A stretch of DNA of 49,567 nucleotides from a virus. Made by a program: the position numbers and the translations under genes. The stretch spans positions 1 through 49,567 of the IMG/VR virus record IMGVR_UViG_3300009504_000001. The stretch is one strand, 5' to 3'. Shown piece by piece: positions 1,224 to 48,370 of the stretch (position 1 is its first letter; each line of letters begins with the position of its first letter). The notes beneath the pieces are model-generated. The model worked only from the letters and a program-made list of their open reading frames with translations. It was not told the origin of the DNA and did no database searches.

Positions 1224-1289
1224 CAGGCCCTCCTTGTTCTAATATGGGGAGAAAATTGGGCGTCTCCCCGGCGCCCACCGTGGATTATC

Positions 1290-1318
1290 AATATACCATG
1301 TCGGAGGTCAGTTGTCAA
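1290..1318 (-). promoter_or_regulatory. sigma70-type promoter reading leftward
   Basis: On the minus strand TTGACA (1318-1313), a 17-base spacer and TATATT (1295-1290) give a near-consensus promoter. The spacer ends in CATGG before the -10 box, as in the promoter at 3773-3802. Transcription would start near 1283 and read the gene at 1223-846. The -35 box overlaps the stop region of the preceding gene. Confidence 0.8.
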
Positions 1319-1587
1319 CCCCTCTCATCAAGTTGTGTCTGTAGTCCGAAGATCTCGCGATTCAGAGTTTCAATCTCGTCCTTCAACGCGACGATCTCCT
1401 CGTCTCTCTCCTGTACTTCATCCCGCAGATCAGTGTTGACCTGCCGAACATCTTCGACGAGATCCATTATGTCGCAGGATTCTCTGACGAGCTTATCCTG
1501 TAGGTCTGCCACCTGATTTGCGATCTCTTCGACACGCCGGGCTGCCGACCTTATCGTATCGAGATCGCCGCAACTATACCTCGCCAT
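1315..1587 (-). CDS. Coiled-coil protein, 90 aa
   Basis: The protein is almost entirely heptad-type coiled coil from about residue 15 to 85 (for example VEEIANQVADLQDKL and EIVALKDEIETLN). No enzyme motif is visible, so an oligomeric scaffold or adaptor is likely. The ATG has GGAGGA upstream and overlaps the 3' end of the gene at 1574-1780 by 14 bases. Confidence 0.78.
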   Translation of the reverse strand: MARYSCGDLDTIRSAARRVEEIANQVADLQDKLVRESCDIMDLVEDVRQVNTDLRDEVQERDEEIVALKDEIETLNREIFGLQTQLDERG

Positions 1588-2908: not shown

Positions 2909-3439
2909 CTACCCAAAGTCGCCGAAGCCTAACTTCTTCATCACATCCTCTCCACTCTCGACCCTATCCACCGGGAAGCGCAACGATCCATCCGCCTGCC
3001 GATCCTCCTTCATATCAACGTAGGCCCGCCATCCGAGGTCGAGGCAACTCTGTTTAAACTTCTCGAGGTCAAACCCGGCGGAGGGGAAGAACTCGAGGAT
3101 AGCCATATTCCCTCGATACTTACCGAGGTCGGCGAGTGCCATCACTTCATTCCTCCTGCGAGGCGCACTAACTCTCCCACTCTTCGGCCGAATCAGAAGA
3201 TGATCTTTCTCCAACGTCACTCGGACCTGCCCTCTCAACTCAGCAAACCTCCCATCGAACTCCTCGATGAATACCTCGGCCGACTTCAGAAGTTGAAACA
3301 TCTTATACTGCTCGTTGGTCAGCCTCTCCGGTGCCACATCGATGTGGAGCTCTTCTCCCTTCTCCACCACCACCAGGAGGATGGCCTCGAGTATCTCCCG
3401 ATTCGTCCTCACCGTATCGACACTCAGACTATACGCCAT
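2909..3439 (-). CDS. Hypothetical protein, 176 aa
   Basis: No family is recognised. The N-terminal half is helical and acidic (residues 12-60). A basic patch (KSGRVSAPRRRNEV, about 85-98) precedes a beta-rich C-terminal half with LEFFPSAGFD and GWRAYVDMK. The ATG is two bases past the stop of the upstream gene and has only a weak ribosome site, suggesting translational coupling. Confidence 0.72.
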   Translation of the reverse strand: MAYSLSVDTVRTNREILEAILLVVVEKGEELHIDVAPERLTNEQYKMFQLLKSAEVFIEEFDGRFAELRGQVRVTLEKDHLLIRPKSGRVSAPRRRNEVMALADLGKYRGNMAILEFFPSAGFDLEKFKQSCLDLGWRAYVDMKEDRQADGSLRFPVDRVESGEDVMKKLGFGDFG

Positions 3440-3441
3440 GA

Positions 3442-3726
3442 TTATATCTTCGGTTTATGCGTGGAGGTCGGCGTACCGCGAGGCGTGCTTGGCTCCCGCT
3501 CATCACGGTCATCCGGCCCAGTGCGTGGATCGCCGCCAACTGACGCGTGTATGGCTGCATCGAGCTCCGGCATCGGATCAGCCGGGCACGTCGATATATG
3601 TTCGCCGAGATCGTAGATAATCTTCGGACTAACATAGGAGCCCTTCTTCTGGGATGACGAGGAGAAGTGATAGTTCTTCCGCGCATCGTTATCCGACCAC
3701 ACTTTCCCACACCTATGGCATCTCAT
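3442..3726 (-). CDS. Small protein with N-terminal CxxC knuckle, 94 aa
   Basis: The start is MRCHRCGKVW, chosen because AAAGGAGAG lies seven bases upstream and the promoter -10 box lies 47 bases upstream. One CHRC knuckle and a later cysteine and histidine (HISTCP, about residue 43-48) could hold zinc. The C-terminal third is Pro/Thr/Asp-rich and probably disordered. It is the first gene after the promoter at 3773-3802. Confidence 0.72.
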   Translation of the reverse strand: MRCHRCGKVWSDNDARKNYHFSSSSQKKGSYVSPKIIYDLGEHISTCPADPMPELDAAIHASVGGDPRTGPDDRDEREPSTPRGTPTSTHKPKI

Positions 3727-3772
3727 AGCTCTCTCCTTTGACACAGATAAATCCCAATTGCCCACTACAACC

Positions 3773-3802
3773 AATATACCATGTGTCAACCTCCGTTGTC
3801 AA
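3773..3802 (-). promoter_or_regulatory. sigma70-type promoter reading leftward
   Basis: On the minus strand TTGACA (3802-3797), an 18-base spacer and TATATT (3778-3773). The first bases (TTGACAAC) and the end of the spacer (CATGG before TATATT) match the promoter at 1290-1318. A second TTGACA lies within the spacer. It drives the gene at 3726 and probably those down to 2909. Confidence 0.78.
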
Positions 3803-3920
3803 CCATCGGAGTTAAGTCATACTTATATAGACCGTACACCATACGCCACGAGGCGTACGGTCAACCCCTATACTTTCCCACGGGTTGACAACGTCGGTGT
3901 GCCGTGGTTGGAGTCTGAAT

Positions 3921-4212
3921 TTCCAACCACCAACCACCAATCAACTACATATACTACTACTACTAACGCATGTCCCCGGGATGCGGGTATTGGCAATTGG
4001 AAAGACAGGGGGGTGGGCATAGAGGGGGGCTTAGATATGTATATAGATAAATATATACTATATATATAGAATATATATAAGATATATATATAGTATATAT
4101 ATAACTATACCTCTATCTTCTCCGCCCTCTCTGCCTACACATCTCGAAACCCAAATGCCAAAACCCGTATACCCGGGGGGTCCATTAGTAGTAGTAGTAG
4201 TTGTCGTTGGAA
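3921..4212. repeat. Giant imperfect inverted repeat with A+T core (candidate origin)
   Basis: The two halves are inverted copies about a centre near 4075. ACTACTACTACTAAC (3953-3967) matches the complement of the GTAGTAGTAG tract (4185-4201). CCCCGGG, CGGGT and TTGGCA (3974-3995) match CCCGGGG, ACCCG and TGCCAA (4156-4178) in mirrored order and spacing. ATATACTATATATA (4053-4066) matches the complement around 4086-4100. TTCCAAC (3921-3927) and GTTGGAA (4206-4212) may extend it. About 75 central bases (4035-4110) are nearly pure A+T. No gene fits here; the 580 bases between 3727 and 4307 are non-coding. A replication origin or DNA-end processing site is the leading idea. Confidence 0.75.
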
Positions 4213-4243
4213 CACGAAGGCGAGACGAGGGGAGGCGAGACGA

Positions 4244-4277
4244 AGAAGCGCCCACGAGTCAAACCCGGGGCGCTTCT
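4244..4277 (-). terminator. Hairpin terminator after the 4308-4673 gene
   Basis: A perfect ten-base-pair stem (AGAAGCGCCC at 4244-4253, GGGCGCTTCT at 4268-4277) with a 14-base loop lies 31 bases past the leftward stop at 4308. The strand continues TCGTCTCGCC, only moderately T-rich. It would keep leftward transcription out of the inverted repeat. Confidence 0.6.
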
Positions 4278-4307
4278 CAACTCGGACCAGGGGGAGCAGT
4301 AGTTAAT

Positions 4308-4673
4308 TTAACTCTCAGCCTGACTCTGACTGCGGCAGCAGCCGAAGTCGCACTCACCTTCGACGATCTCCCACTCGTGCACACAGACGGCGCGCTTCAC
4401 TGTCTCCACATCGTGCTTGCGGAGTCTCTCGATTGCACCGAGGATCAGACCCAACGATGTCTCATCGTCGTCATCGAGTGGGTAGCGATCTACATGGATC
4501 ACTACTGTATACATCTTCGCACCGTCGATGCCAGTGGCCTTCGGTCGGCCTACGTACGCTCTTATCATTCGACGCAGTAGTGTCGCCTCTCCGTCATCCG
4601 GAAACACACTCCTCCGACGCGCACACTTCGACAAGGCAGTGTCTCCACACTGCTTACACTCGTACTTAGCCAT
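4308..4673 (-). CDS. Zinc-finger-like hypothetical protein, 121 aa
   Basis: The N-terminus has CKQCGDTALSKC (residues 6-17), a CxxC-x8-C arrangement. The C-terminus adds a cysteine cluster (CVHEWEIVEGECDFGCC, about 97-113), together enough for a zinc site. The middle, MYTVVIHVDRYPLDDDDETS, is a beta strand with an acidic loop. No known family can be named. The ATG has AGGAGG seven to eight bases upstream. The gene is followed by the hairpin at 4244-4277. Confidence 0.72.
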   Translation of the reverse strand: MAKYECKQCGDTALSKCARRRSVFPDDGEATLLRRMIRAYVGRPKATGIDGAKMYTVVIHVDRYPLDDDDETSLGLILGAIERLRKHDVETVKRAVCVHEWEIVEGECDFGCCRSQSQAES

Positions 4674-4805: not shown

Positions 4806-5156
4806 CTAGATGACTGTATTTCCCAGCGACTTGAGATACGCGATCTGTTCGTCACTGAACGCTATAACCTTCGTATCGACCGGCAGATGCGGTTCCGCGA
4901 CAGGCTTGTTATCCAGCCGCTTCATCAGACAGTCCTGCGCGTGCTCCTTCAACGCCTTGCCCTGTAGGCCGGCCTTCATGGCCTTCCGTAGATCGCCCTG
5001 TACGTCTACACGCAGGGTCGACCCGGCGAAAGCCTTGTAGTAGCATGTGCGCTTCCTTGCTTCGAGTGCTTCGTCGTAAGTGGGATAGGTTATGCTTATC
5101 TCCACTTCGGGCGAATGTTCGTCCTTCGAGCACTTGAATTTCAGATCCATTGGCAT
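4806..5156 (-). CDS. Hypothetical protein, 116 aa, first gene of leftward early unit
   Basis: No family is recognised. The start MPMDLKFKC is chosen because GAGG lies eight bases upstream and the in-frame sequence farther upstream looks non-coding. The first 50 residues form beta strands (VEISITYPTYDEALEARKR), the rest is basic and helical (GDLRKAMKAGLQGKALKEHAQD). The C-terminal FSDEQIAYLKSLG resembles a short helical cap. It is the first leftward gene next to the divergent control region, so it is probably expressed very early. Confidence 0.75.
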   Translation of the reverse strand: MPMDLKFKCSKDEHSPEVEISITYPTYDEALEARKRTCYYKAFAGSTLRVDVQGDLRKAMKAGLQGKALKEHAQDCLMKRLDNKPVAEPHLPVDTKVIAFSDEQIAYLKSLGNTVI

Positions 5157-6168: not shown

Positions 6169-6685
6169 AGAGAACTTGAGCTTGCTCCCGCTCCCCGAGG
6201 AGAAGGAGAGATCGTGGCAGCCAGACGCGTGGATGCCTCGGCATAACCTCGCAGTTCAACTCCACGCCCTCGGACATACGAATAAAGAGATAGCCCTAAT
6301 TACGGGGTATACCGAGAATCGCGTCTCGATCATCATCAACGATCCGCGGGCGAGGGAGATCATACAGGATACGCTCGCGAGTATCTCGGGGAATATCACC
6401 GATCTCCACACCCGCCTTAAGATACATGCCGTCGAGGCCCTCGATGAGATCGTGAATGAACTCCGGCATTCGAGAGATGAGAGGGTTAAGCAGAAAGCCG
6501 CCTTCGGTCTTCTCGACCGGGCAGGGTACACCCCGGTGCATAAGCAAGTCATAATCGGGGCATCTATATCGGAGGTGGTCGCCAAGAGGATGGAAGCGGC
6601 GCAAGCCAAACTAGAGGCTATTGACGCCGAGTACCTGGTGGTAGAGGCAGATACGAATGGAGACAGCGGCCAATCCCATTCCTAG
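6158..6685 (+). CDS. Probable small terminase subunit, 175 aa
   Basis: It would bind the packaging site and recruit the large terminase. Position directly before, and overlapping, the large subunit gene is the main evidence. Residues about 28-55 form a helix-turn-helix (LGHTNKEIALITGYTENRVS), the usual DNA-binding part of small terminases. Residues about 75-125 are helical (HAVEALDEIVNELRHS, then KQKAAFGLLDRAGY), fitting the oligomerisation core, and the length is typical. The C-terminal tail is disordered. A general HTH regulator is possible but less likely given the context. Confidence 0.8.
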   Translation: MPSRENLSLLPLPEEKERSWQPDAWMPRHNLAVQLHALGHTNKEIALITGYTENRVSIIINDPRAREIIQDTLASISGNITDLHTRLKIHAVEALDEIVNELRHSRDERVKQKAAFGLLDRAGYTPVHKQVIIGASISEVVAKRMEAAQAKLEAIDAEYLVVEADTNGDSGQSHS

Positions 6686-8288
6686 CCCCAGCGTACCTGC
6701 AGGGGCAGATGAGAAACTTCGGCAACGGATGCGTGCGTCCGCCAAGAAGGATCTCTTTTACCTCGCCACGGTTGTCCTGGGGTATGAAGACCTCACCCCA
6801 CATACACATGGGGCGCTCTGTCGCTTCCTGACGCAAGCCCGATATGCCCGGCGTATGATCCTCATGCCGCGGACCCACTTCAAGACAACTCTCGCTATCG
6901 TCGCTCATTCGATTCAACTTATCCTCGAGAATCCGAATATCCGCATTCTGATAGTGGGGGATAATGAGAAGAACACCCAACTGACGTTAGGGGAGATCTC
7001 CTCCCATTTCAAGTATAATGAACTCCTCCAATGGTTATTCCCCGAGCTTATCCCCGATAATTTCAATAAAGTGCGGTGGAATGTAGAGGAGATCGAGGTG
7101 GTTAGGACCCGGCGATGGAAGGAGGCTACCGTGACGGCGGCGGGCGCTTTCGGAGGCGTCGAGTCCAAGCATTATGACGTTATCAAAGCCGATGACCTTG
7201 TAGTCGAGAAGCATATCCACTCGAACACCGAGTTGGATAAGCTGAATAAGTGGGTCGGGGGTCTCGAGCCTCTCCTCATCAAGGAGGAAGATCAGATCGA
7301 CTTCATTGGCTCGAGGAAGCGTAAAGGGGATACCTACGAACACATCCTCAAGTTCTACGAGGGAGATGGTACTCGGGTGGCGCTCGGGCCCTACGCGGAA
7401 CTTCGAGGAGATATCGCCGTCTTCTCCCGTTCAATCGTAGAGAACAACGCCCCGATATTCCCCGAGCGGTTCGGTTGGAAGTTTATTCGGCGGATGATGA
7501 AGAATGACCCCGAGCGCTATCACGCACAGTTGGCGAACGATCCGAAGGCATCGGGGTTGAATTACTTCAACGACCAGGATCTCCGCTACTTCAGATTGGA
7601 TGAAGATAGTCACATAGTAACCCCGGAAGGGGAGCGTATCTCCATATGGGATTTGGAGAGGATCATCCTATATGATCCGTCGGTGGCTGAGAAGACTAGC
7701 TCCTCCCAACAGGCGATTATAGTCGCCGCCAAGGGAAGTGATCCTCGCAGATTCATCCTCGAAGCCCTCATCGGGCATTTCTCCCCGACGGATGCCATCG
7801 ACCTCCTATACGATCTCAACGAGCGTTTCATGCCGGCGTTCATATCTATCGAGAGCCGAGGCTTCCAGGGATGGGTGAAGTATGCCCTCGAGGAGATATC
7901 TGAGGCCCGAGGGCTCCCCTCACTCCCGTTAATCGAGTGGCCCCCGGAAGGGGCGATGAAGGGGAACTGGGCGAAGAAAGAGCATATTCGCGGTCTCCAA
8001 CCCATCGTCAAGAGACATATGTTGTGGGTGCAAGAGGAGCAACTAGAGCTCATCGAGCAGATCGGATACTATCCGAATGTGCGATGGGATGATGGTCTTG
8101 ATGCTCTGGCGCAAGGTCTGGATTATTGGCCCTACGTTGAGGATGCAGAGGCGAGGAGTGCGAGGATCTCCAGTGAGGACCGTTGGTTGGCTCAGGTGGC
8201 GGGAGATCGGTTTGCGAAGCCAGATAGAGAGTGGGATGAGGAGAAGTTTCTGCGGAGGTTCACTCACACCGGGTACGGGTTGAAATGA
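6657..8288 (+). CDS. terL: Terminase large subunit
   Basis: DNA-packaging motor ATPase and headful or end nuclease, acting at the portal vertex. The ATPase domain has a Walker A-like MPRTHFKTT (residues 70-78), and a Walker B with catalytic acid in YDVIKADDLV (about 173-182). The C-terminal RNase H-fold nuclease is marked by ILYDPSVA (D340), SIESRG (E399) and DDGLDAL (478-484), the usual acidic triad. The 543-residue length is normal for TerL. The gene overlaps the small terminase by 29 bases and shares ATGA with the next gene. Confidence 0.95.
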   Translation: METAANPIPSPSVPAGADEKLRQRMRASAKKDLFYLATVVLGYEDLTPHTHGALCRFLTQARYARRMILMPRTHFKTTLAIVAHSIQLILENPNIRILIVGDNEKNTQLTLGEISSHFKYNELLQWLFPELIPDNFNKVRWNVEEIEVVRTRRWKEATVTAAGAFGGVESKHYDVIKADDLVVEKHIHSNTELDKLNKWVGGLEPLLIKEEDQIDFIGSRKRKGDTYEHILKFYEGDGTRVALGPYAELRGDIAVFSRSIVENNAPIFPERFGWKFIRRMMKNDPERYHAQLANDPKASGLNYFNDQDLRYFRLDEDSHIVTPEGERISIWDLERIILYDPSVAEKTSSSQQAIIVAAKGSDPRRFILEALIGHFSPTDAIDLLYDLNERFMPAFISIESRGFQGWVKYALEEISEARGLPSLPLIEWPPEGAMKGNWAKKEHIRGLQPIVKRHMLWVQEEQLELIEQIGYYPNVRWDDGLDALAQGLDYWPYVEDAEARSARISSEDRWLAQVAGDRFAKPDREWDEEKFLRRFTHTGYGLK

Positions 8289-11683: not shown

Positions 11684-11857
11684 ATGGCGTTTAGGAAAGA
11701 TTTCAAAGACCCTGGTGATACGGCCATCCCTGGACGTCGGATGCCTCCGCCAGACACTAGCAAGGGGCCTATCCCTCCGCAGCCGAGAACACCGCCGAGG
11801 ATAGTCCCACAGAAGCCCACTGCTCCTCTCGGGCCGGATAAGCAGAAGGAGAGATAG
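11684..11857 (+). CDS. Small proline-rich protein, 57 aa
   Basis: MAFRKDFKDP starts after AGGAGG at ideal spacing. About a quarter of the residues are proline (PPPDTSKGPIPPQPRTPP), and the chain is basic and surely disordered. No family is recognised. It opens the receptor-binding gene block, so a linker or assembly role in the tail is possible, but this is inference. Confidence 0.65.
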   Translation: MAFRKDFKDPGDTAIPGRRMPPPDTSKGPIPPQPRTPPRIVPQKPTAPLGPDKQKER

Positions 11858-16775: not shown

Positions 16776-17642
16776 ATGGCTCGTGCCATCATCACAGGGC
16801 TAGAATTACTTTCTGAGCCGGTGCGGGCGCGTGTAATCGTCACCGGCTTGGAAGTACATGTCGGTGAGTCAGAGCCACTACACTTCCAACTTCCCGATGT
16901 TGGGGCTTTCGAGTTCGACGGTCTAGGGTTGGAAGGGGAGATCGAGGACGCTCCTGAGACCCGCGTCATCATAACAGGGTTGGAAGTCCTGTCCGGCGAT
17001 CTGGATGCACAACTCTTCGTCCTGCCCGATGTCGGAGTGTTCGAGTTCGACGGCGGGATGCTCACGGCAGAACTTGAAGAGCCAGAGGCGATCGAAACCC
17101 GCGTCATCATAACGGGCCTAGAGGTTCTTGCTGCGGAAGTAGAAGTCGAGCCGCTCGAATACCAGTTGCCCGCTGAGGACGTAGGTGAGTTCGAGTTCGA
17201 CGGTGGTGGCTTCCTTGGGTACATCACCGAGTCTGATCCCTCGGACGCCCAGGAGTTCGTGCTTCCCGACGTGGGCGCGTTCGATTTCGTGGGGATGGAC
17301 GTTGAAGCCGAACTCGAACCGACGATCTTCTACCAACTCACCGACGTTGGCGAGATCCTCTTCGTCGGCATGGACGACATCGAGGGCTACATCCCGGCGA
17401 TTCAAGAGCATGAGCTGGGGGACGAGGGCGTCTTCGAGTTCACTGGTCTGGAGATGGAGGGCGACATTCCCCCGATCCAAGAACACACGCTGGTCGGCGA
17501 GGGGGTGTTCGAGTTCACTGGCCTGGACCTAACTGGTCGCCTGCGCACCGCTCGTAAGCGTGTTCTCCATCCGCTTATGATATTCGTAGGTAAACCTCTG
17601 ATCCTTAACCGATATTGGCATAAACTGTGGAAGGAAAGATGA
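16776..17642 (+). CDS. Repeat-containing beta protein, 288 aa
   Basis: The chain is built from two interwoven repeats. RVIITGLEVL-like units occur at least four times in the first half. A unit of the form LPDVGAFEFDGL followed by an L-x-G-E-I-like strand occurs about seven times from residue 37 to 260. It is very acidic except for a basic C-terminal tail (TARKRVLHPLMI and HKLWKER). No family is known to me. The position suggests a fibre shaft or adaptor. The stop overlaps the portal ATG (ATGA). Confidence 0.65.
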   Translation: MARAIITGLELLSEPVRARVIVTGLEVHVGESEPLHFQLPDVGAFEFDGLGLEGEIEDAPETRVIITGLEVLSGDLDAQLFVLPDVGVFEFDGGMLTAELEEPEAIETRVIITGLEVLAAEVEVEPLEYQLPAEDVGEFEFDGGGFLGYITESDPSDAQEFVLPDVGAFDFVGMDVEAELEPTIFYQLTDVGEILFVGMDDIEGYIPAIQEHELGDEGVFEFTGLEMEGDIPPIQEHTLVGEGVFEFTGLDLTGRLRTARKRVLHPLMIFVGKPLILNRYWHKLWKER

Positions 17643-19747
17643 GCTACGTGCCTGAGATGCAGGGTCGAGAGCTCGGCTCTAACGATGAAGGTAAAGCGGC
17701 TCGTCTCCGTAAAACCGAGCCGATAGGGATTGATCTGGAACCTAATCAGTTGGTCCGATCGGTCCGGCAGATTCCCACAGAACTCTGGGGAGCGATAGCG
17801 GATGAAATCCTATTCTTCCTACAGGATGAACTCCAAGCCGCACATAACGAACGTCAGGAGTTCGTTCAGAAGATCGCACGTTGGAAGATAGCCTACCGTG
17901 CGCCGCTCCCCACTGAGCCCAAGCACTTCCCTATCTGGAACGCTGCCAACTCGACCTATCCGTTGATTAAGGAGACGGTCAACACTATGGCGGCGCAGAT
18001 AGCTCAGTCCACCCTCGTAGTCCGCCCTCGTTGGGTGTTGAAGGACTTGGCTGCAGAGTGGAAACCCTTCGTCGATCCTATTGAGAACTTCCTAGACATC
18101 GCAGCCGACCGCGACATGGATCTGAAGAAAGTAGCCGTACCTTGGTTGATCGAAGGGGCTAAGCTAGGCACGTCTATGCTCGAAGTCGGATACGATGTCG
18201 ACGTCCGTCGCATATATAAATACACGCCCGACGGACGAGACGCCTACCCTTCGAGGATAGTGCATCGCGACGGTCCTCGTGCTCTCCACTTCCCGTTGCA
18301 GGATTTCTGGATCAGGTTCGGAGAAACCAACGAGCAGGAAGCCAGATGGTGTGCCCGTCGTATGTTGCTCACCGAGCATGAACTACGCGAGGCCGCAGCA
18401 CAAGGGAAACTATTCAACCTCAAATCGCTGGAGGGGAGACAGATAACCTCCCGCGATCGTGCTGTTCGCATCGACGAGGACATCGAGAAGACTCGCCCAG
18501 GTAGCCAGGATCTCTGGGAAATCTTCAAGGTTTGGGTATCTTGGGACATAGACGGCGATGGCACGAGAGAGGAACTGCTTCTATACTTCTCTCGTGATGC
18601 TCTCTCATTCCTATCGAAGAAGTTCAACCCATACTGGCATGGGCGTCGTCCCTACGTCCCATTCAGATACTTCCCGGTCGAGCATAGGTTCTACGGTGAA
18701 GGTCTATGTGAAATGCTGGAGGGCCTCCAGATAGGCATAACTGACATGCACAATCGCCGGGCGGACAATCACACCCTGGCGAATGCGGCGATGATTATCA
18801 AGAGGAAGATGTCTAAAGGCCTCCTCCCGGGTGATCCACTATACGCAGGGAAAATAATCGAGACCGCAGACATCTGGAACGACATACGAGAATTCCGCCT
18901 CTCTGAGCCATACCAGAGCACAGTACAAGAAGAAGCAATCCTGAGGCAGATCGCTGACAATCTCGCTGGCATGAGTGATGCACAGCGTGGTTCAGCTATG
19001 CCAGTTACTCGCACCACAGCGTCTGCTCAGATCGCTCTTCTCCAGGAGCAAGCGAAGCGGGTAGACCTAACCGTGCAGGCGGCGCGAGAAGCTCTCGATT
19101 CTATCGGACTATACACCGTAAATCTCTACTATCAGTTCGGCACCAACGGTAAAGCTATCGAGTGGCTCGGCGAACGCGGACGTATAGTCGAAGCAGTCTT
19201 CCGTCTACCCAAGCGGGTGGTAGAAATCGGCCATGCACTGAGAGTCTCCACCCCGACGTCTCTACAAAATCGTCAGGTTAAGCGAGAGAATGCCATAGCT
19301 CTCTTCAACCTCTTAGTGCAAATGTACGAGCGAATAATGCCATTTGCACAGTTACTCTCACCTGAACAACTACCTGAGGTGGCTCATGCGATGGTTCGCT
19401 CTGCTAATCGTTTCATGCAGGATGTCCTGGAGACGTTTGAAGTTACGGATGCTGAGGATGTTCTCGCGGGTCTCGCAGTCCTCGAGAAAGTCCTACCTGC
19501 ACCAGAAGACCTTGGAGGAATGGACGCTTTCCGAAGAGCAACGGAAAGCTCTCAGATCATTGACAAGATCGGCAGGCTGGAGGATCTATATAGAGAGGCT
19601 GCAGCTTCTCGAGGAGGAGTCGAGAGACTTCTTGGAGAGGGCGCAGACGGAGCCCGAATGGCGACACGCCAAGGGGTTCCTGGACGGAGTACGCCAGGTA
19701 CAGGGCCTGGTGGAGGTACTCATTTCCGTAGCGGAGGAGGGAGGTAG
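17639..19747 (+). CDS. Portal protein, 702 aa
   Basis: Forms the dodecameric ring at the packaging vertex. The order terminase, portal, scaffold and capsid, the roughly 700-residue length and the pattern PIWNAANSTYPLIKETVNTM (about 97-116) fit portal proteins of short-tailed phages such as the P22-like group. The chain is rich in helices, with a long helical C-terminal crown (EREN... to VLEKVLPAPEDL). The last 40 residues are Gly-rich and probably flexible. ATG at 17639 is chosen for the ATGA overlap and AAGGA upstream. The last 290 bases also carry a second frame (see 19458-19850). Confidence 0.88.
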   Translation: MSYVPEMQGRELGSNDEGKAARLRKTEPIGIDLEPNQLVRSVRQIPTELWGAIADEILFFLQDELQAAHNERQEFVQKIARWKIAYRAPLPTEPKHFPIWNAANSTYPLIKETVNTMAAQIAQSTLVVRPRWVLKDLAAEWKPFVDPIENFLDIAADRDMDLKKVAVPWLIEGAKLGTSMLEVGYDVDVRRIYKYTPDGRDAYPSRIVHRDGPRALHFPLQDFWIRFGETNEQEARWCARRMLLTEHELREAAAQGKLFNLKSLEGRQITSRDRAVRIDEDIEKTRPGSQDLWEIFKVWVSWDIDGDGTREELLLYFSRDALSFLSKKFNPYWHGRRPYVPFRYFPVEHRFYGEGLCEMLEGLQIGITDMHNRRADNHTLANAAMIIKRKMSKGLLPGDPLYAGKIIETADIWNDIREFRLSEPYQSTVQEEAILRQIADNLAGMSDAQRGSAMPVTRTTASAQIALLQEQAKRVDLTVQAAREALDSIGLYTVNLYYQFGTNGKAIEWLGERGRIVEAVFRLPKRVVEIGHALRVSTPTSLQNRQVKRENAIALFNLLVQMYERIMPFAQLLSPEQLPEVAHAMVRSANRFMQDVLETFEVTDAEDVLAGLAVLEKVLPAPEDLGGMDAFRRATESSQIIDKIGRLEDLYREAAASRGGVERLLGEGADGARMATRQGVPGRSTPGTGPGGGTHFRSGGGR

Positions 19748-35300: not shown

Positions 35301-36589
35301 GCCGACTCGGTAATAGGCACATGGGTAAGGGACTTGAGCACGCTATGTCTAACGCAGGTATTGAGGAGGCATTCAGCGAGGGGGTTCTCCGCTTGGCCGA
35401 AGCAGCCGTACCTGCGGGCGATGCCGTGTTTAGGTCTCTCCATCATATACCTATTACAGGGAGTACCCTCGCTGGGCAGGCTATCGCAGGGACTATATCA
35501 GCTATGCACCGTGGCGGACAACTCAGCCGGAAAGTAACTCAGAGTATGCTCGCCGGTTATACCAGCAGTGACTCGCTGAACCGCGGGTGGGCATACTTCT
35601 GGCACAAACTCCACACCGGAGAGGCTCTAACTAAGTTCGAGACGGGGAAGATCGGATGGGATAAGTTCGTTGATGATGGTCTACCGTTCTTCGCCCCTGC
35701 GGTCAGGGATAAGTTCAGAGAAATCTACCGCATACATGGTAGAGAGGGCGCACTGCGGTTCATCGGGAAGACGGCATCAGATCAGGTTAACTTTATCTAC
35801 GGCGGCGGCGTCCAGCCTCCGTGGATGCAATCGGTATACGCTCGGGTACTCGGGACGTTCGGTACATGGCCACTGTGGGCCATTGAGAACACCATGACTC
35901 AGGTGCTGAAGCATGGTACACCGCAGCAGGTCGCCGGGTATTACCTACGTACCGCCACCATGTTGGGGGTGTACGGGAACATAATGCTACAGACCGGCTA
36001 CAATCTATTTAGTTGGATTCCGCCGTTGTCGGTCCTCTGGGCAGGAGGACCCTATATGGACTTGTTGGATGCAGCCAGACGGGTGATCTCCGGGCCTATG
36101 GATCAGAAGCTCGCCGCATTGCAGGAGCTAGGCAGACTAGGTTTGCGAGTCACTCTCCCCGGGCAGTCATTCTACCGCGATATGAACCGGGTGTTCACCG
36201 GAGAGGAACCTCCCGAGATTCGTGCTCTAGGCGTATTCCTCGGACGTACATTCGACGACTATCATTGGGCGACGAATATCATCTACGATCCCACCATACC
36301 GGATTTCGAGCTACCCGCAGTGGATCGTATGCGTATGGAGGATGCAGGAGTAAACCGGCTAAACATCCCACGGTTCCCGCCGCCATCTACTCCTCCTCCT
36401 GCTCGTCCCGGGTTGATCGGTGGGCCTCCTCCGGGAGGTCCCACCGGATTGCCTTCGCAACCGATGCCGAATCTACCTATGGAGACTGAACGACCCGGCA
36501 TCCTCGGTCCTCCCGGCGCGATGAGATTAGACCCTGGGTTCTGGGAAAGCATTCGCCTACCTATAGAACGGGAAGGTGGGGAATGGTAG
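32387..36589 (+). CDS. Giant internal virion protein, 1400 aa
   Basis: The largest gene; by place and size it corresponds to T7 gp16 (ejection protein with optional peptidoglycan-lytic part). It is helix-rich with hydrophobic stretches in the last third. A segment YARVLGTFGTWPLWAIENTM (about 1145-1164) and the surrounding helices resemble domains found in large polyvalent proteins of phages and plasmids. The C-terminal 80 residues are Pro/Gly-rich (PPPSTPPPARPG). No lytic transglycosylase motif is clear in residues 1-200. GTG 32387 or ATG 32405 may be the start (GGAGG 11 bases before the latter). The end overlaps the convergent gene by 29 bases. Confidence 0.78.
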   Translation: MEDIRGMTPPGEEDRTLAQLASMGPDPTGAKIDAVLAGFGQSTIQLARGPIHLASDIAKFFTEQDVLRAARELVDQVHRGAGMTADVAALNAGLTPEEIAPYKLAGNLIGYMAPILGSVKLASLILRSPVALEKWPFISSVITDSTAGLIFGGVFEEAEDWRQRGHHMVRESGLFGAGRIIIGGPIVAKTWRDKRFLSSVAHKEVASIFKQLEAGVPVHSLTKKQNRILNVMMNEEQYLSSSVAAQDMFNRSGPHAAMIQAIVDVGDRLTLGGVLRMATDNAAGTREIIKSARAAFPYLKFTPIKRTLTGVPGKPTHYDIFFGTRGLNNAQKAQLKAEGRFTGQMVRTQGGEADYLYLGLSKKGRAILERLDGSGKKRYVKQDNLVDLPNFLEKPLVAWDAPFKDFRAFYYETLRRLRDTRTGWTSEGDVIEAIRTGTMALDDGARRAFDVSGAIVYPEELGYASMRRAVSGREVSEAILREGAAAAGPTETLTYLTFDDIFMAWARERGIGSAKDMVAAKEAFTGRLRRELWESVPQADRLLYEKVLAEQINLIDNMRLPPKLLAHQKGFSWETLGDDTIMLREINSGARMVFAKTDDALGWLKGIVRTEAELPTIIPSMRLSMGLYNAGMPDPGSLYKFEKLASLNPAELPTAGTRNMWNWLQDVENLAQIPFWSKGMYHVDQGVNLMRAEMTPFAKEIESIWRGVNYENKVKLVEVWRRAEKEKWSTAQTARAMKKEGVPTAGVSAYIRARRINDRLFKETGLDANAYVDNYYSRILPFLESTHKRDVSIALRGAKGSPSDKDFWFEYTRTGDLAKVEMDPELVMQLYTRSVFWKKHVDESWRGLKRMAGLDTKDAPLRFKDLPDGKELLALRKKIDPYAKMDSPVVPGYVRKIVAEYLNAVKGTPHASYKSLGESFERMFNKLGVAVRPEIIQDMVHCLTAAQYGAYIGIRPWHIARNMTQVPWLMFGRLGNRHMGKGLEHAMSNAGIEEAFSEGVLRLAEAAVPAGDAVFRSLHHIPITGSTLAGQAIAGTISAMHRGGQLSRKVTQSMLAGYTSSDSLNRGWAYFWHKLHTGEALTKFETGKIGWDKFVDDGLPFFAPAVRDKFREIYRIHGREGALRFIGKTASDQVNFIYGGGVQPPWMQSVYARVLGTFGTWPLWAIENTMTQVLKHGTPQQVAGYYLRTATMLGVYGNIMLQTGYNLFSWIPPLSVLWAGGPYMDLLDAARRVISGPMDQKLAALQELGRLGLRVTLPGQSFYRDMNRVFTGEEPPEIRALGVFLGRTFDDYHWATNIIYDPTIPDFELPAVDRMRMEDAGVNRLNIPRFPPPSTPPPARPGLIGGPPPGGPTGLPSQPMPNLPMETERPGILGPPGAMRLDPGFWESIRLPIEREGGEW

Positions 36590-37751
36590 TCTTACGCTTA
36601 ACTGGGGTATAGGCAGAGGTACCGTCCTCTCGCTTCGTCCGCTCTATCTTCCCCATACGAATCAGCATATGTAGGAGACGGCCGAGGGTCTGGTCGTCTC
36701 CTACCGCTGCGTTCCGGTTCAGAATATCTTGCGTGGTCATCCCCCCGGTGTCTATGATCTGATTGAGAATTCTCTCCATATCCGGGGCATACTCGAACTT
36801 ACCCACCGAGGAGAACGTCCGAGCCATCTTATCCTCGATGCTCCCTAGAACCTCCCACGCCAGCTTTATGTCTCGAGGTTCCACCACGAGATCATTCTTC
36901 TCCGACATTGATAGAAGCATCGCCGTCTTTAGAAGATGCACCTTCGCCTTGCGCCAGTGATACCCTTCGATGCGGTAGTCTGCGGGTACAGACTCTCCGA
37001 CCTCGATGTAGAGTTTATCATACAGTTTCCATGCCTCCGGGGTTAACGTGAACTCGCCACGGAGATTAGCTATCACGTTCAGATCCTCCTGGAGAGCTTC
37101 GACGAGTGGACCAGGAGGAGCTTTCGGATGAGGATTGAGGAACCTCGGCTTGTCCTCGAAGATGAATATAACCCGAGCGGTGAAACCGTGTTCAATCACC
37201 CCTCTTGGCATTCCCTCCGAGATCCACGAAGGGGTAGTACCGCCGAGGATGTTCAACACAGGGTTGTGGATTACGTCCTTCCCCTGATGTTTGGTAGAGT
37301 ACCTCCACCCCTTCGGATTCCACTCACAGTCATATATGTCGGTAAGGAACTGGATCATGGAGAGACCACTCGGATCGATCAGGCTCGATAGTTCTGTACT
37401 ATGAATGGTCATGGCGGCCACCTTCCCTGAGCCACCGATCTTACCTAGACTCTGAATCAGATCTTGAGACGTGACCGCATCCGGACCGAAGATGATCTCA
37501 GGCACTCCGAGAAGTATCCTCCTGCCCGCACGGATAGACGTACTCTTAGCTACCTTCCCCGGCGGGCCGACCAGGATGACATATAGATTAGGATACAGGA
37601 GGTAATGCCCCTGGTCTATCCAGACATTCCTCCTAGCCACACTAGCCAGGACGGACAGACCACACCAAAGATGGAATGAATCCGGAGACTCAAGTTCCTT
37701 GGTGTATTCTGCATATGCCCTGAGCCAGTTACCTGCTACCCGGTCGCTCAT
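36561..37751 (-). CDS. DUF3987-type phage replication ATPase, 396 aa
   Basis: A RecA-like ATPase of the DUF3987 kind, often paired with DNA replication genes. A P-loop variant GPPGKVAKST (about residues 61-70) follows NLYVILV. MTIHSTELSSLID (about 113-125) is a probable Walker B region. The C-terminal 70 residues are winged-helix-like (MTTQDILNRNAAVGDDQTLGRLL). It is likely a helicase or helicase loader; no DnaG-like primase is visible elsewhere. The 3' end meets the giant virion gene tail to tail with no terminator between. Confidence 0.78.
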   Translation of the reverse strand: MSDRVAGNWLRAYAEYTKELESPDSFHLWCGLSVLASVARRNVWIDQGHYLLYPNLYVILVGPPGKVAKSTSIRAGRRILLGVPEIIFGPDAVTSQDLIQSLGKIGGSGKVAAMTIHSTELSSLIDPSGLSMIQFLTDIYDCEWNPKGWRYSTKHQGKDVIHNPVLNILGGTTPSWISEGMPRGVIEHGFTARVIFIFEDKPRFLNPHPKAPPGPLVEALQEDLNVIANLRGEFTLTPEAWKLYDKLYIEVGESVPADYRIEGYHWRKAKVHLLKTAMLLSMSEKNDLVVEPRDIKLAWEVLGSIEDKMARTFSSVGKFEYAPDMERILNQIIDTGGMTTQDILNRNAAVGDDQTLGRLLHMLIRMGKIERTKREDGTSAYTPVKRKTTIPHLPVL

Positions 37752-37974: not shown

Positions 37975-38119
37975 TCTTCGGAATGACCGAATCGTGTTGA
38001 ATCAAGGTACACCCAGGAGAGAGAATCACTGCCTTACCTCTGTTGGCCCACTCGGCCTCGACGAACTCGATTCGATGTATTACGCCACAGTAGTCGCAAC
38101 GTATCTTGATTCTAGACAT
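37946..38119 (-). CDS. Small zinc-ribbon-like protein, 57 aa
   Basis: ATG 38119 lies in the last codons of the polymerase gene (overlap of eight bases) with AAGGAGATGACGT upstream. The product begins MSRIKIRCDYCGVIHRIEF, has one CxxC, a third cysteine (SPGC, about 34-37) and a very acidic end (NDEQDDDEQ). Metal binding or an acidic-tail mimic of DNA is possible. It stands between the polymerase and the RHH regulator. Confidence 0.7.
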   Translation of the reverse strand: MSRIKIRCDYCGVIHRIEFVEAEWANRGKAVILSPGCTLIQHDSVIPKNDEQDDDEQ

Positions 38120-40421
38120 ACGTCATCTCCTTCCAGTTTCTCCCGACCTTTACATCGATCGGAATAGTCAAGGCATGACGATCGATATAGATCGTACGGA
38201 GCATACACGAGCGGATGATCTCAACGCTCTCCTCCAAGGTTTCCTCCCTTACCTGTAGGAGGCCGCCGTCGTGCATATGAGCGAAGAAGGTATGTTGAGC
38301 AGCAGGCAGGTCAGACAAGAGGCGATCTGCGGCGGCTATCGTCGTTGTAGTCAGATCAGACACGGTAGACTGCGGCTCGTATGACACGGCTTCGGTAAGG
38401 GAGTTGTGTATAGACCCGGTGAATCTCCTCACTCGCCCGAAGGAGTTAGTCAACGTACCAGTCTTCTTCAACTGCGACTTGACCTGCTCCCACCACCACT
38501 TGAGACCAGGGTGAAGTTCGTGGTAGGCAGCGTGGATTCTTCTCGCGCCTGACACGTCGAGACCGATGTTGGTATCGAGATACTCCTTGTTGACGGCGAG
38601 ACGGAACACATCCGGACCCATCACGTAGTTAAGGGCGTGTCGGCAACGCTTGGCGATATATCTCTGTGGGACGTGATCTTTCCCGAGCTCGTCACACATG
38701 GCGACCAACTCTTCGTAGGTCAGGCCGAACGGCAGGCGAGAAGCCAACTGGAGATGGATGTCGATTCCCTTCTCCATGTCCTCCAAGAGATCGTAGTCCT
38801 TGGTCTTCACTGCAACTACACGTGCCTCAGCCTGCGCCTGGTCCCACCCGAGGAAGATGAAGCCGTCGTCAGGGATCAGACACTCGCGCAGATCATCTGG
38901 AGCAGTCTGGAGAGCGACGCCATTCCACCAAGGTATGGTCGAGGAGAGCCGTCCGCTACGTGTCCCCGCCAGGTTCCAGTTGGTGCGAACCCTGTTGTCC
39001 TTATCGATCACCCCGTCGTGTAGGTATCTGGAGACCACGTTCAGATCTTGACGTACTCGGATCACCGCGGTTAAGACCGCCCGGATTGTGGGATCGGACA
39101 TACCAGCGGTGATGTCCATGAGTTCTTTCTGCTCAGTACTCCTCGATGCGCGCTTGACCCCGAGGTCGTCATACACCAAGCGGGCCACTTGCGCCCCAGA
39201 TCTACAATTGATCTTCCTCCCGATAGCCTCAGCTAGCTTCTCCTCGGTTTGCGCCGCTCGTTCCAGGTAGAACTTCTTCTTCCTATTGAGCAGGTCGGCG
39301 TCAATCCGAATACCCTCGGACGAGGCGCGGCAGAATATATCGAATATGGACATGGAGATGTCATACCCCTGCCTGCCGCCGGTGTAGTCGAACTCTCGGG
39401 TCTCGATCTTCTCCATCGCCTCCGCAGTCACTACACTATCCCGACAACAGTATGTCTGTCCTCTTACGTCATCCCTCCCGACGAAGTGTAGCTCATCCTT
39501 GTAGTAGGGCCAACGGGTTAACACCGACCCTATGACGGCGAGACTCTTCTCTCGGATGTCCTGCCAACACGAGTGCCATGCTATCATCGTGTCGTCCCGC
39601 ACGTTTTTAACTTCTATCCCGATCCGATTGAGCGCGACGACATCGAACATAGCGTTTTGCCACACCTTCGGCACATCGGATCCGAGGAGCTTCCGATGAG
39701 CGTCGATGTATTCCATCGGGATGCAGATAGCCCAACTGGGATCGTTAGTATAACTAATATAAGCTATGTCTTCCGGAGCATACCACTCGGTGTCAGCCAC
39801 TATCACACTCCCCGAGAGTAGACGATCAACTGCTTCGTCTACGTCAAACCTACTCGGCTGCACGATGAGGTTAGCCTCGGGGAGAATGATGTCGGGGAAC
39901 TCAGACTCTTCTCGAACCCTGGTCAGATCCCATATCCCCAGAGGTTCTTTGAATAACATCGCGTCATAACCGTGGATATAGAACGCCGGGTGGATAGTGG
40001 GGATTACCTTCAGGTCGGGGACCAGAGTGGAGGATAGAATCGATCCTCTCCATCGCATGATCTGGAGATTACCCGTGAGCGCCCAAAGAGCGTAGTTTCC
40101 CAGAGGGACGACCACGTTCGGCTTAACCGATTTGATCTCCGTCGCCAGCTCTATTATCCCATCCATGTACTCTTGAGTAGGGGAGCCGCTTCGGAAGAAG
40201 AATGCTTCCTTCTCCTTGGGCTTCTGAGGGATCATATACTTTATCACGTTCGTGATGTATACGCTCTCACGACGTATGCCCGCTGCTGCGAGTAGGCGAT
40301 CCAACTGCCCGCCCGCAGGGCCGACGAACGGAGCGCCGTGCTTAACCTCATCCCAACTAGGCGCCTCGCCCACTAGCATTATGTCTGCGTTCTTCGGGCC
40401 GATGGCAGGAACTCGGATCAC
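38112..40421 (-). CDS. DNA polymerase A fused to a uracil-DNA glycosylase domain
   Basis: Replicative polymerase, 769 aa. Residues 1-165 are a family 4-like uracil-DNA glycosylase: GEAPSWDE (18-25), PFVGPAG (31-37), ITNVIKY (56-62), VVPLGNYALWAL, IHPAFY (143-148). Residues about 200-345 are a 3'-5' exonuclease with all three motifs: DTE (210-212), NAMFD (256-260), YCCRD (324-328). The polymerase has TRSGRLSS (487-494), motif A DQAQAEAR (527-534), motif B around K591 and motif C HDG (717-719), in which the usual HDE glutamate is glycine. The GTG start overlaps the upstream stop as GTGA with AAGGAGG upstream. It might remove uracil during copying. Confidence 0.92.
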   Translation of the reverse strand: MIRVPAIGPKNADIMLVGEAPSWDEVKHGAPFVGPAGGQLDRLLAAAGIRRESVYITNVIKYMIPQKPKEKEAFFFRSGSPTQEYMDGIIELATEIKSVKPNVVVPLGNYALWALTGNLQIMRWRGSILSSTLVPDLKVIPTIHPAFYIHGYDAMLFKEPLGIWDLTRVREESEFPDIILPEANLIVQPSRFDVDEAVDRLLSGSVIVADTEWYAPEDIAYISYTNDPSWAICIPMEYIDAHRKLLGSDVPKVWQNAMFDVVALNRIGIEVKNVRDDTMIAWHSCWQDIREKSLAVIGSVLTRWPYYKDELHFVGRDDVRGQTYCCRDSVVTAEAMEKIETREFDYTGGRQGYDISMSIFDIFCRASSEGIRIDADLLNRKKKFYLERAAQTEEKLAEAIGRKINCRSGAQVARLVYDDLGVKRASRSTEQKELMDITAGMSDPTIRAVLTAVIRVRQDLNVVSRYLHDGVIDKDNRVRTNWNLAGTRSGRLSSTIPWWNGVALQTAPDDLRECLIPDDGFIFLGWDQAQAEARVVAVKTKDYDLLEDMEKGIDIHLQLASRLPFGLTYEELVAMCDELGKDHVPQRYIAKRCRHALNYVMGPDVFRLAVNKEYLDTNIGLDVSGARRIHAAYHELHPGLKWWWEQVKSQLKKTGTLTNSFGRVRRFTGSIHNSLTEAVSYEPQSTVSDLTTTTIAAADRLLSDLPAAQHTFFAHMHDGGLLQVREETLEESVEIIRSCMLRTIYIDRHALTIPIDVKVGRNWKEMTYV

Positions 40422-41821
40422 GTCTCCTCCTTCGCCATGATGTGGCTCTGTAGCACCATGTTACCTCGTGCACAGAACTCCTCGTCAAGCTCGAAGCCGA
40501 GGAACTCACATTGGTTGTTCAGTGCGCCGACGCCTATCATACCCGAGCCAGCGAACGGATCGAGGATGCGAGACCCACCGAGGGCCACCATGCCGACGAG
40601 TTCTGTACATAGATCCTCGGGCATCTGCACTGAGTGTACGCGCTCACTCGGTAGAGGCGTATCATAGATGAAGATATTCTGCCTCCCTCTCTTGAGGAAA
40701 GCCGGATCGCCCTTGGCGGCGAAGATGAACGACTCCGACGCTATGATGATACCCTTCTTCGGATCGCCAAGCGTGCCGAAGGTCTTGTTTGGTTTGACCC
40801 AGACCGATGGGACTAGCTTGACATGATTGAAACCTGCCTGTTCTAACCAGAACGCCAATCCCATAGAGTCGAATGCGAGCTTCGCTATCTCCTTATCCTT
40901 GAAGGCGCCAGAGTCTCGAAGCCGCCGATAGAGATCCAGTTGCCTCTGTGAGTAGGTCAACTTCCGTACATCGAAGAACCCCACAAACCAAGCATCAGGG
41001 CGCATCACACGATAACACTCCTTCACCACAGCCTGCACCAGGTCGATGATGATCTGCTCATCGTCCTCATACACCTTGAGATTGGTTTTCTGGGAGGTCT
41101 TCTTATACTCAAGGTCGATACCGAAAGGGAAGTTGGTGATGACCGCATCGATCGAACTGTCAGGCACATCCCTTATCAACTCCGCGGCATCCCCTTGGAT
41201 GATCTTAGCGGCGAAGCCTTCGATTCTCCCCTCTGCCTTGAGTCGCACGACCTCCTTCCGCCGCTCCATCTTCTTCTTGTCTTTCACCATAGTCAACGCG
41301 GTGACGTAGGACTTATTCTCCTTAAGTCCGGGGTCTTCCTTCAATTCCTGGGAGAGTTTAATCATCTGATTAACTGTCCCGACGGACGCTCCTATCATCT
41401 CCGCCGTTTTCCTCTGATTCCAGTCGGGATGGAGTTGACGTTGGAGGGTGTCTATCTCCGCGATGGCGGCGGCCTGCATCCACCACTCGATGTCCATCCG
41501 TTGGATGTTCTCCTCAAGTTCCAGCACCTTCCTCTGCATGGAGTCCAGACCACCGCGCCGGACGAAGGGAATGTCTTCATGCCCCAGTTTGAGAAACGCT
41601 TGGACCCGACAGAAGCCTGCCACTAACTCATTCGACTCATCCTCGAGAGTAATCGGATGTATCAGACCTGCGCGGGAGATAGATTCCGCCAGCCTGTTGA
41701 TGTGCTCGAAGAACTTGTCGTCATCGAGAGTCACTCTTCGTTGTCGCGAAGAGATCTTGATGTCGGAAATCTTTATCCTCCCGACTGTCTGCCCTGCCAG
41801 GGCGAATGCCGTATCGCTCAC
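40418..41821 (-). CDS. ParB-like domain fused to a beta-class DNA methyltransferase
   Basis: Residues about 10-185 form a ParB/Srx-like unit: a ParB box (AGLIHPITLED, LVAGFCRVQAFLKLG, ELEENIQRMDIEWW) and a helix-turn-helix (NQRKTAEMIGASVGTVNQMI). The second part is an amino-methyltransferase of beta order: motif IV TNFPFGI (instead of the common [DSN]PP[YFW]) comes before motif I DPFAGSGMIGVGAL near the end. It would methylate adenine or cytosine amino groups at a site chosen by the ParB part, to dodge host restriction or mark replication. GTG 41821 overlaps the co-chaperonin stop. Confidence 0.88.
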   Translation of the reverse strand: MSDTAFALAGQTVGRIKISDIKISSRQRRVTLDDDKFFEHINRLAESISRAGLIHPITLEDESNELVAGFCRVQAFLKLGHEDIPFVRRGGLDSMQRKVLELEENIQRMDIEWWMQAAAIAEIDTLQRQLHPDWNQRKTAEMIGASVGTVNQMIKLSQELKEDPGLKENKSYVTALTMVKDKKKMERRKEVVRLKAEGRIEGFAAKIIQGDAAELIRDVPDSSIDAVITNFPFGIDLEYKKTSQKTNLKVYEDDEQIIIDLVQAVVKECYRVMRPDAWFVGFFDVRKLTYSQRQLDLYRRLRDSGAFKDKEIAKLAFDSMGLAFWLEQAGFNHVKLVPSVWVKPNKTFGTLGDPKKGIIIASESFIFAAKGDPAFLKRGRQNIFIYDTPLPSERVHSVQMPEDLCTELVGMVALGGSRILDPFAGSGMIGVGALNNQCEFLGFELDEEFCARGNMVLQSHIMAKEET

Positions 41822-42363
41822 CAATCCTCCAGTACTGCTAAGATGTCATCCTCGTGGACCCTATAGTACATCCTATTGTTGAGGTAGAAGATATTAACTC
41901 CGATAGGATAGAGTATAGAGAACCCCGGGGAGTTACCTTCTGCCCACTGATACGTCAATACATCTGAGGCCAGGAATTGGAAGCCCTCTCCCATTAGATC
42001 CTGTAGGGTGATGCGCTTCTCGTTCCCGGTGCTCCGAGATTCCTTAATCGTATCGACAAACAACGGCTCGACATCGGGAGAGCAGAAGATAGACAACGGC
42101 GTCCCGGCATCGTCGAGAACTATCTCGAATACTCGGTAATAGGTAGGAACAGCGTCGTGACTCTCGACATTGATTAGAATAAAATCCCCAGGTCGAACAT
42201 CCTCCTTGGCCGCAGAAGATGCTACTACCCTACCACTCTGCGGGTACTCTTGGCGATAGTTCGTGATAAGACCAGAAGGGAGTCGATCGCCTCGGACTGC
42301 CTCTACTATGACATAGCCCTTCGGTGGCTTCATGAGTTTACCGTCTATGATGCCCCGCCCCAC
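41818..42363 (-). CDS. GroES-like co-chaperonin with a large insertion
   Basis: GroES lids cap host GroEL to fold large phage proteins. The first half matches the GroES barrel: KPPKGYVIVEAV, LPSGLITNYRQEYPQSGRVVASS, VRPGDFILIN. The C-terminal NRMYYRVHEDDILAVLE is the family's end signature. About 80 residues are inserted between these parts, giving 181 rather than the usual 95-110. The mobile loop with its IVL-like tripeptide is not the normal GGIVL; here SGLI stands there. GTG 42363 is the start. It overlaps both neighbours. Confidence 0.8.
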   Translation of the reverse strand: MGRGIIDGKLMKPPKGYVIVEAVRGDRLPSGLITNYRQEYPQSGRVVASSAAKEDVRPGDFILINVESHDAVPTYYRVFEIVLDDAGTPLSIFCSPDVEPLFVDTIKESRSTGNEKRITLQDLMGEGFQFLASDVLTYQWAEGNSPGFSILYPIGVNIFYLNNRMYYRVHEDDILAVLEDW

Positions 42364-48162: not shown

Positions 48163-48163
48163 G

Positions 48164-48370
48164 TCAGTCCTCCATCCCTTCGATCTGCTCGCATAGCGCA
48201 TCGAGATAGTAGTCATACGGCGCCAGCTCACTCGGTAGACTCTGCAAGAACTCCTCGCACTTGCATTGGTACGCCCAATCGAGGGTCGTCCGCGGATCTT
48301 TCGGATCGAACTCTATCTCGAACGGCTGTCCGCAGCACGGACAATCAATGGTCTTTTGTAGTAATGGCAT
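48164..48370 (-). CDS. Small zinc-finger-like protein, 68 aa
   Basis: MPLLQKTIDCPCCGQPFEIEF, then QCKCEEF (about 36-42), gives a CxCC...CxC cluster fit for one zinc. The C-terminus is acidic. It overlaps the upstream membrane protein gene by 26 bases. No known family. Confidence 0.65.
   Translation of the reverse strand: MPLLQKTIDCPCCGQPFEIEFDPKDPRTTLDWAYQCKCEEFLQSLPSELAPYDYYLDALCEQIEGMED

Follow-up and report, generated by a model that had tools for sequence, protein, structure and literature searches.

What is a gene-free, roughly mirror-symmetric stretch of 268 bp doing amid the early genes of a tailed virus? The question arises from a virus record of 49,567 bp, the whole of which was analysed here (the window). 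The ends of the record are an exact 123-bp repeat (1-123 and 49445-49567), and it therefore represents a circular assembly of ~49.44 kb. Late genes occupy the plus strand from the terminase region to 36.6 kb. Early and replication genes lie on the minus strand and extend leftwards from 5.4 kb, across the junction, as far as 36.6 kb; the minus-strand replication set comprises a primase, a DNA polymerase A, a ParB-methyltransferase, a Sak4-like protein and a PD-(D/E)XK exonuclease. The DUF3987 primase/helicase is encoded at 36561-37751. The element sits in a 580-bp gap of the early block, past the first two early genes (Table 1).

Table 1 Features in and around the palindromic element, and palindromes across related genomes. 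Positions are window coordinates or, for palindromes by genome, distances from the terminase large subunit gene (TerL).
Feature	Position	Strand	Remarks
Left arm	3942..4075		inner part G-rich, CTA tract at outer edge; complementary to 4076-4209
Right arm	4076..4209		inner part pyrimidine-rich, TAG tract at outer edge
A+T core across dyad	4033..4117		holds the genome's most A+T-rich 60-bp segment; candidate DNA unwinding element
Outer CTA block	3953..3965		13 nt, 100% pairing with 4189-4201
Outer TAG block	4189..4201		partner of 3953-3965
Two imperfect direct repeats, left arm	3998..4029		TGGAAAGACAGGGGGG / TGGGCATAGAGGGGGG, 75% alike; candidate initiator-site array
Early gene	2909..3439	-	homologue in L106 (6932-7477), 31% identity, E 4e-23
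Early gene, small	3442..3726	-	starts MRCHRCG..., zinc-ribbon-like; function from sequence only
Sigma-70-like promoter TTGACA-18-TATATT	3773..3802	-	11/12 matches; serves early gene adjoining palindrome
Early gene, small, cysteine-rich, other side of element	4308..4673	-	no Pfam match
First early gene past early/late divergence	4806..5152	-	longer ORF: no Pfam match
TerL	6657..8288	+	phrog_38, E 3.8e-53; reference point for palindrome position across genomes
SU10-like portal	17627-19747	+	late gene
Palindrome, window	-2.58 kb		268 bp
Palindrome, L011/MW202554	-1.35 kb		247 bp
Palindrome, vir526	-2.51 kb		398 bp; two arms with unpaired middle, not continuous
Palindrome, MW202489	-2.85 kb		209 bp; two arms with unpaired middle, not continuous
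Palindrome, Microcystis phage Mel-JY34 (PP438425)	-3.07 kb		189 bp; two arms with unpaired middle, not continuous
Palindrome, G016	-2.93 kb		440 bp
Palindrome, G002/L106	-2.11 kb		218 bp; two arms with unpaired middle, not continuous
Palindrome, G006/L188	-5.56 kb		253 bp
Palindrome, G014	-2.25 kb		245 bp; two arms with unpaired middle, not continuous
Palindrome, G001/L104	-5.99 kb		262 bp
Palindrome, G004/L130	-2.56 kb		338 bp
Palindrome, G007 and G008	-4.60 and -4.40 kb		420 bp
Palindrome, G003/L107	-2.22 kb		345 bp; two arms with unpaired middle, not continuous
Palindrome, G010/L232	-1.42 kb		172 bp

A repeat search returned an ungapped inverted repeat, with two arms of 134 nt each that are 72% complementary and separated by 0 nt of spacer. 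The initial annotation had described a giant imperfect inverted repeat centred near 4075, and the centre indeed lies at 4075/4076; the limits it gave, 3921-4212, were too wide, the actual outer limits being 3942-4209. The blocks it named are present (the CTA/TAG tract, CGGGT, TTGGCA and TATATACTATATATATA), with CCCCGGG lying one base out of register, and its remark that no gene fits agrees with the lack of a convincing ORF across 3790-4307. Two of the checks it had put forward, a shuffled-sequence control and folding of both strands, also came out in its favour. Thus, the palindrome score is 52.6, against at most 23.4 in 200 local dinucleotide shuffles in which left arm, core and right arm were shuffled separately, and folding gives z = -10.2 and -10.5 for RNA, one value per strand, and z = -9.1 for DNA. 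The element is the genome's top palindrome at 190 bits, the runner-up reaching 33 bits, and the core includes a 60-bp segment of 92% A+T that is exceeded nowhere else in the genome. An A+T-repeat artefact was ruled out as the source of the symmetry: with the central 80 bp cut out, 66 of 94 outer positions still pair where 24.3 are expected (z = 10; z = 10.9 by gapped alignment), showing that the symmetry is not created by the A+T core. A 10.5-bp periodicity was not seen among the paired positions.

That the palindromic feature exists can be stated with high confidence. An assembly artefact was rejected because fold-back chimeras would be nearly perfect and because separate assemblies (L117 and L119; L229 and L230) contain the same palindrome; the vir526 palindrome, moreover, is unchanged in the published record. 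A transposon or MITE is ruled out by the single copy, the sequence differing from genome to genome and the similar map position.

Single-protein scans with TerL and DNA polymerase found no relatives; profile scans succeeded and, with alignments of terminase and of DNA polymerase as queries, gathered ~240 loci that had not been selected for palindromes. Palindromes spanning 170-440 bp are present in related podovirus-like genomes whose terminase is 21-40% identical, and their carriers include a Microcystis phage, a Desulfofustis phage and the methanogen virus vir526. The element recurs in a broad lineage of tailed viruses with bacterial and archaeal hosts; its letters differ and its place is about the same. 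As to conserved structure in relatives, which the initial annotation had suggested looking for, the top palindrome spans at least 170 bp and lies 1.3-6.0 kb upstream of TerL, usually on the early-gene side, in 15 of the 23 whole genomes, which amount to 14 independent cases since G007 and G008 are near relatives. Palindrome centres cluster 1.3-3.1 kb upstream of the terminase, with G001, G006 and G007 at 4.6-6.0 kb; the Desulfofustis phage OP947158 has a weaker palindrome at about -2.6 kb. Palindromes of at least 50 bits lie upstream of TerL in 12 cases and downstream in 3 among 39 loci, and in 14 and 2 cases, respectively, among 64 loci, both sets including some near relatives. Local-composition shuffles of 60 loci reached a maximum of 37.9 bits, a range that the Mel-JY34 (38 bits) and G014 (41 bits) palindromes barely exceed. 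Not every relative has the feature: a majority of the TerL-related loci score below 50 bits, and a strong palindrome was not found in the relatives A-4L, TR020 and G011-G013 (weak or none).

The dyad coincides with the genome's most A+T-rich 60-bp segment in nine of the 15 palindrome-bearing whole genomes (the window, L011, L301, L303, G004, G006, G007, G010 and G014); A+T cores are less extreme in G001, G003, G016 and L211. In 21 genomes or loci, the outer arms still match with z of 5.8-13 once the central 80 bp is removed. L106, the closest relative found, has a TerL 40% identical to that of the window, and a homologue of the window's early gene 2909..3439 adjoins its palindrome; the same early gene thus stands beside the palindrome in both, and the position is orthologous.

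The recurring traits are symmetry, place and, often, the genome's A+T maximum at the dyad. Arm sequences are mostly unrelated between genomes, DNA similarity being limited to near relatives and (TA)-type cores, and a DNA search of the region against phages and plasmids returned one chance 29-base match and nothing more. Such turnover fits a site of no specific function, namely an inverted-duplication hotspot at which polymerase template switching at a stall site lets palindromes form, decay and be replaced. L211 and L214, where the palindrome region has been rebuilt between flanks that are 78-92% identical, fit it as well, as do pairs lost and gained at ordinary rates between near relatives. 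We nevertheless find a mere hotspot improbable, given a dyad that is repeatedly the genome's A+T maximum, a similar position across a lineage with ~25% terminase identity, and the fact that no giant member is a nearly perfect, young palindrome. The arms are, moreover, strongly conserved in L117/L119: 1 of 138 arm sites differs, versus 27 of 260 spacer sites (Fisher p 1e-4), a contrast that shows purifying selection on the arms in this one near-relative pair.

Several arms hold internal repeats. Direct-repeat arrays within arms reach p <= 0.02 in eight of the 21 palindromes tested and fall short of significance in roughly half the members; those at this level, in the window (p ~0.02, both arms together), vir526, G006 (L188), L186, L224, L155, L222 and G016, run in opposite orientations in the two arms. 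The arrays are strong in L224 and clearest in L186/L188, in which one arm carries successive copies of an ~11-bp unit, TTTCCCATGG, and the opposite arm copies of its complement. Both L188 arms at first seemed to share a symmetric 11-bp insertion, but this is unclear in the direct pairwise alignment and is given no weight here.

Do these arms pair as single strands, or are they read as duplex DNA? Over 21 palindromes, with G016 left out, the mismatches comprise 147 G-T and 153 A-C, i.e., no G-U preference on either strand. A G-U bias pooled over all 22 palindromes (p 0.036) was dismissed, since it stemmed from the CA-repeat core of G016, which adds A-C pairs. Compensatory changes between close relatives number 0 in L229/L230 and 2 in L186/L188, leaving a base-paired hairpin unsupported. 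The unbiased mismatches and the near absence of compensatory changes point to symmetric duplex-DNA sites rather than a base-paired hairpin, and the comparisons as a whole fit a hairpin less well than protein sites arrayed in mirror order on either side of an A+T-rich core. The same counts weigh on a structured RNA or transcription element, whereby the early transcript would fold into a very long hairpin that acts as terminator, RNA-stability element or decoy. The location within the early transcription unit and fold z-scores of about -10 on both strands would suit such an RNA; however, folding is equally strong on both strands, a G-U preference is absent and compensatory changes nearly so, the window has no Rfam match, and a scan for T-run terminators was empty at the palindrome. 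We give this explanation a slim chance.

We propose instead that the element is a replication origin, in which inverted arrays of initiator sites would flank an A+T core that unwinds, a proposal that we judge to have about an equal chance of being right or wrong; our confidence in the assignment of function is moderate. The element would be the origin (replicator) of this tailed virus and of the wider related lineage. The ~80-bp (TA)-rich dyad core would serve as the DNA unwinding element, and the arms would be bound, at sites in mirror order, by an initiator or helicase loader that the phage encodes; complexes assembling from both sides would melt the core, whereupon two forks would be loaded outwards. 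Symmetry, extreme A+T at the dyad, recurring position, repeat arrays in some arms and the purifying selection on the arms of L117/L119 are the observations from which we infer replication initiation, initiator binding by the repeats and bidirectional firing. Perfect DnaA-type boxes occur at the palindromes of L011 and vir526 (two of the eight boxes in 14 genomes, versus 0.15 expected near palindromes); that of MW202554 (L011), TTATCCACA, lies in the right arm near 35928. No gene adjoining the element is common to more than a few genomes, unlike TerL, the exonuclease and the Sak4-like protein, which are common to many, and a conserved initiator gene beside the element was not found. Phage origins often have their initiator gene close by, though this is no strict requirement, and the initiator could be encoded elsewhere.

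GC skew, which the initial annotation had suggested plotting, gives little help. The cumulative minimum does lie near 5.7 kb, but it falls 1.6 kb away from the centre, at the point where early-minus genes give way to late-plus genes, making it weak as evidence; among relatives, the minimum is far from the element in several and coincident in some. Because skew follows gene direction, it is uninformative for the origin. The Sinorhizobium phage AP-20-A, a podovirus that resembles this virus in size and in its early/late layout, has an Ori-Finder oriC, itself a prediction, at the skew minimum between its early and late blocks (PMC13299392).

How does such an origin compare with known ones? Herpes simplex virus oriS/oriL have inverted boxes for the initiator (OBP) around an A+T-rich spacer, and the A+T centre is destabilised by dimers on both arms (PMC12543377). 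The likeness is of architecture only; those origins are far shorter, show no sequence relation and belong to a herpesvirus, not a tailed phage, and the element is not a member of the oriS/oriL family. The annotated origin of satellite phage P4, ori/crr (alpha protein), contains short repeats that run in either direction, but the giant palindrome is absent from the P4 scan, and no P4-alpha-type initiator was identified beside the element here. In the phage lambda ori, the phage initiator binds annotated iterons, which are short direct repeats with an A+T-rich stretch adjoining them, but they form a single array in one orientation, within a gene and with no dyad. Unusually long palindromes in insect and nematode mitochondrial control regions have been studied in relation to a DNA replication origin (PMC1762429); they belong to mitochondrial DNA and are unrelated.

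We would tentatively extend the origin proposal, at somewhat less than an even chance, to a deep lineage of bacterial and archaeal tailed viruses that would use a giant, sequence-variable but structure-conserved palindrome (170-440 bp, A+T-maximal dyad) as its origin, with symmetry and position inherited and the letters, and presumably the initiator recognition sequence, turning over fast. If true, this would place a herpesvirus-like origin architecture in Caudoviricetes, and the fast turnover of the arms, with map position staying much the same, would clearly illustrate origin-initiator co-evolution. For most environmental tailed viruses no replication origin is known; if the element is an origin, it is one that can be found from symmetry and the A+T maximum alone, even without conserved letters, and it offers a directly testable site in named phage records, e.g., Microcystis phage Mel-JY34 (PP438425). 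The literature on phage palindromes, with subscription journals mostly outside coverage, yielded no description of a recurrent giant palindrome in this lineage.

The main rival, though in our view an unlikely one, is a genome-terminus or concatemer-processing site, at which replicated DNA would be cut by the terminase or some other nuclease, or terminal sequence copied by way of a fold-back hairpin, a mechanism that has been proposed for T7 concatemers. Similarly organised phages that have direct terminal repeats end at a like distance upstream of the terminase, 1.9-2.4 kb (A-4L ~2.4 kb, LUZ24 ~1.9 kb, phiEco32 ~2.2 kb); since the same zone holds these genome ends, position alone cannot separate origin from terminus. 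Contig ends tell a similar story: the near-complete contigs G014 and G015 break off within the palindrome, its arms lying at opposite contig ends, the G016 palindrome spans the contig junction, and L210 starts inside the palindrome of its near relative L211. On the other hand, contig breaks are expected at any A+T-rich palindrome, and the assemblies of the window, G010, G014 and G016 are circular. The element accounts for several near-complete virus contigs breaking at one place, and G014, G015, G016 and L210 may be classed as linear or as fragments only because of the palindrome break. Further points against a terminus are the palindromes of G001, G006 and G007, 4.6-6.0 kb from the terminase, and the location of the element in the window and L011, where it sits within the early operon and past the first early genes; LUZ24, by contrast, ends in a divergent promoter region. 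The phages with mapped terminal repeats that were scanned (T7, A-4L, LUZ24 and 45 kb of phiEco32) lack a giant palindrome; at a threshold of 43 bits, none was found in T7, lambda, P4, A-4L, TR020 or the first 45 kb of LUZ24 and phiEco32, while the positive control, N15 telRL, was recovered at 77 bits in the same scan.

The N15 control bears on the last explanation, a telomere-resolution site, at which a protelomerase, as in N15, or a junction resolvase, as in poxviruses, would cut replicated, covalently closed hairpin ends. An A+T-cored imperfect palindrome does look like a replicated hairpin telomere, poxvirus hairpin telomeres contain functional mismatches (PMC8956199), and telRL is, like the element, a non-coding phage site and its genome's strongest palindrome. 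However, at 56 bp and 93% symmetry telRL is far smaller and almost perfect, against 268 bp and 72% here, and it stands beside its protelomerase gene, whereas the ResT/TelK protelomerase domain (PF16684) was found neither in the window (G000) nor in 12 related records by a search in which N15 was positive. A telomere is thus, to us, very unlikely. The initial annotation had seen no protelomerase and had preferred an origin or DNA-structure switch to a telomere; the first point stands, and the preference is favoured, though not proven, by the A+T maximum at the dyad, the long symmetry, the recurring position, the arm arrays and the protelomerase absence.

Several minor observations were made along the way. 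The early promoter region has a near-copy in the window (1285-1320 and 3767-3804: AATATACCATGT...GTTGTCAACC as read on the plus strand), the two driving minus-strand early genes. The minus-strand gene at 40418-41824 fuses a ParB N-terminal domain to an N6/N4 DNA methyltransferase, and ParB-like or methylase genes adjoin the DNA polymerase in relatives. The DNA polymerase A itself (38112-40421, minus strand) has an N-terminus, IMIVGEAPGE...G.PF.G.SG, that is kept in relatives and that we take to resemble a uracil-DNA glycosylase motif. A hexapeptide-repeat (left-handed beta-helix) protein is encoded at 47647-48231 (minus strand) by a visibly repetitive coding stretch. Arthronema virus TR020 (L173) has a weak palindrome at 8135-8193 that coincides with the genome's most A+T-rich 60-mer and lies in a large intergenic gap upstream of a primase/helicase gene, a possible origin in Saffermanviridae. 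Finally, an 86-kb virus contig (L154) carries, downstream of the terminase, a perfect 46-bp palindrome (11701-11746, 100%), a candidate telomere-resolution or regulatory site.
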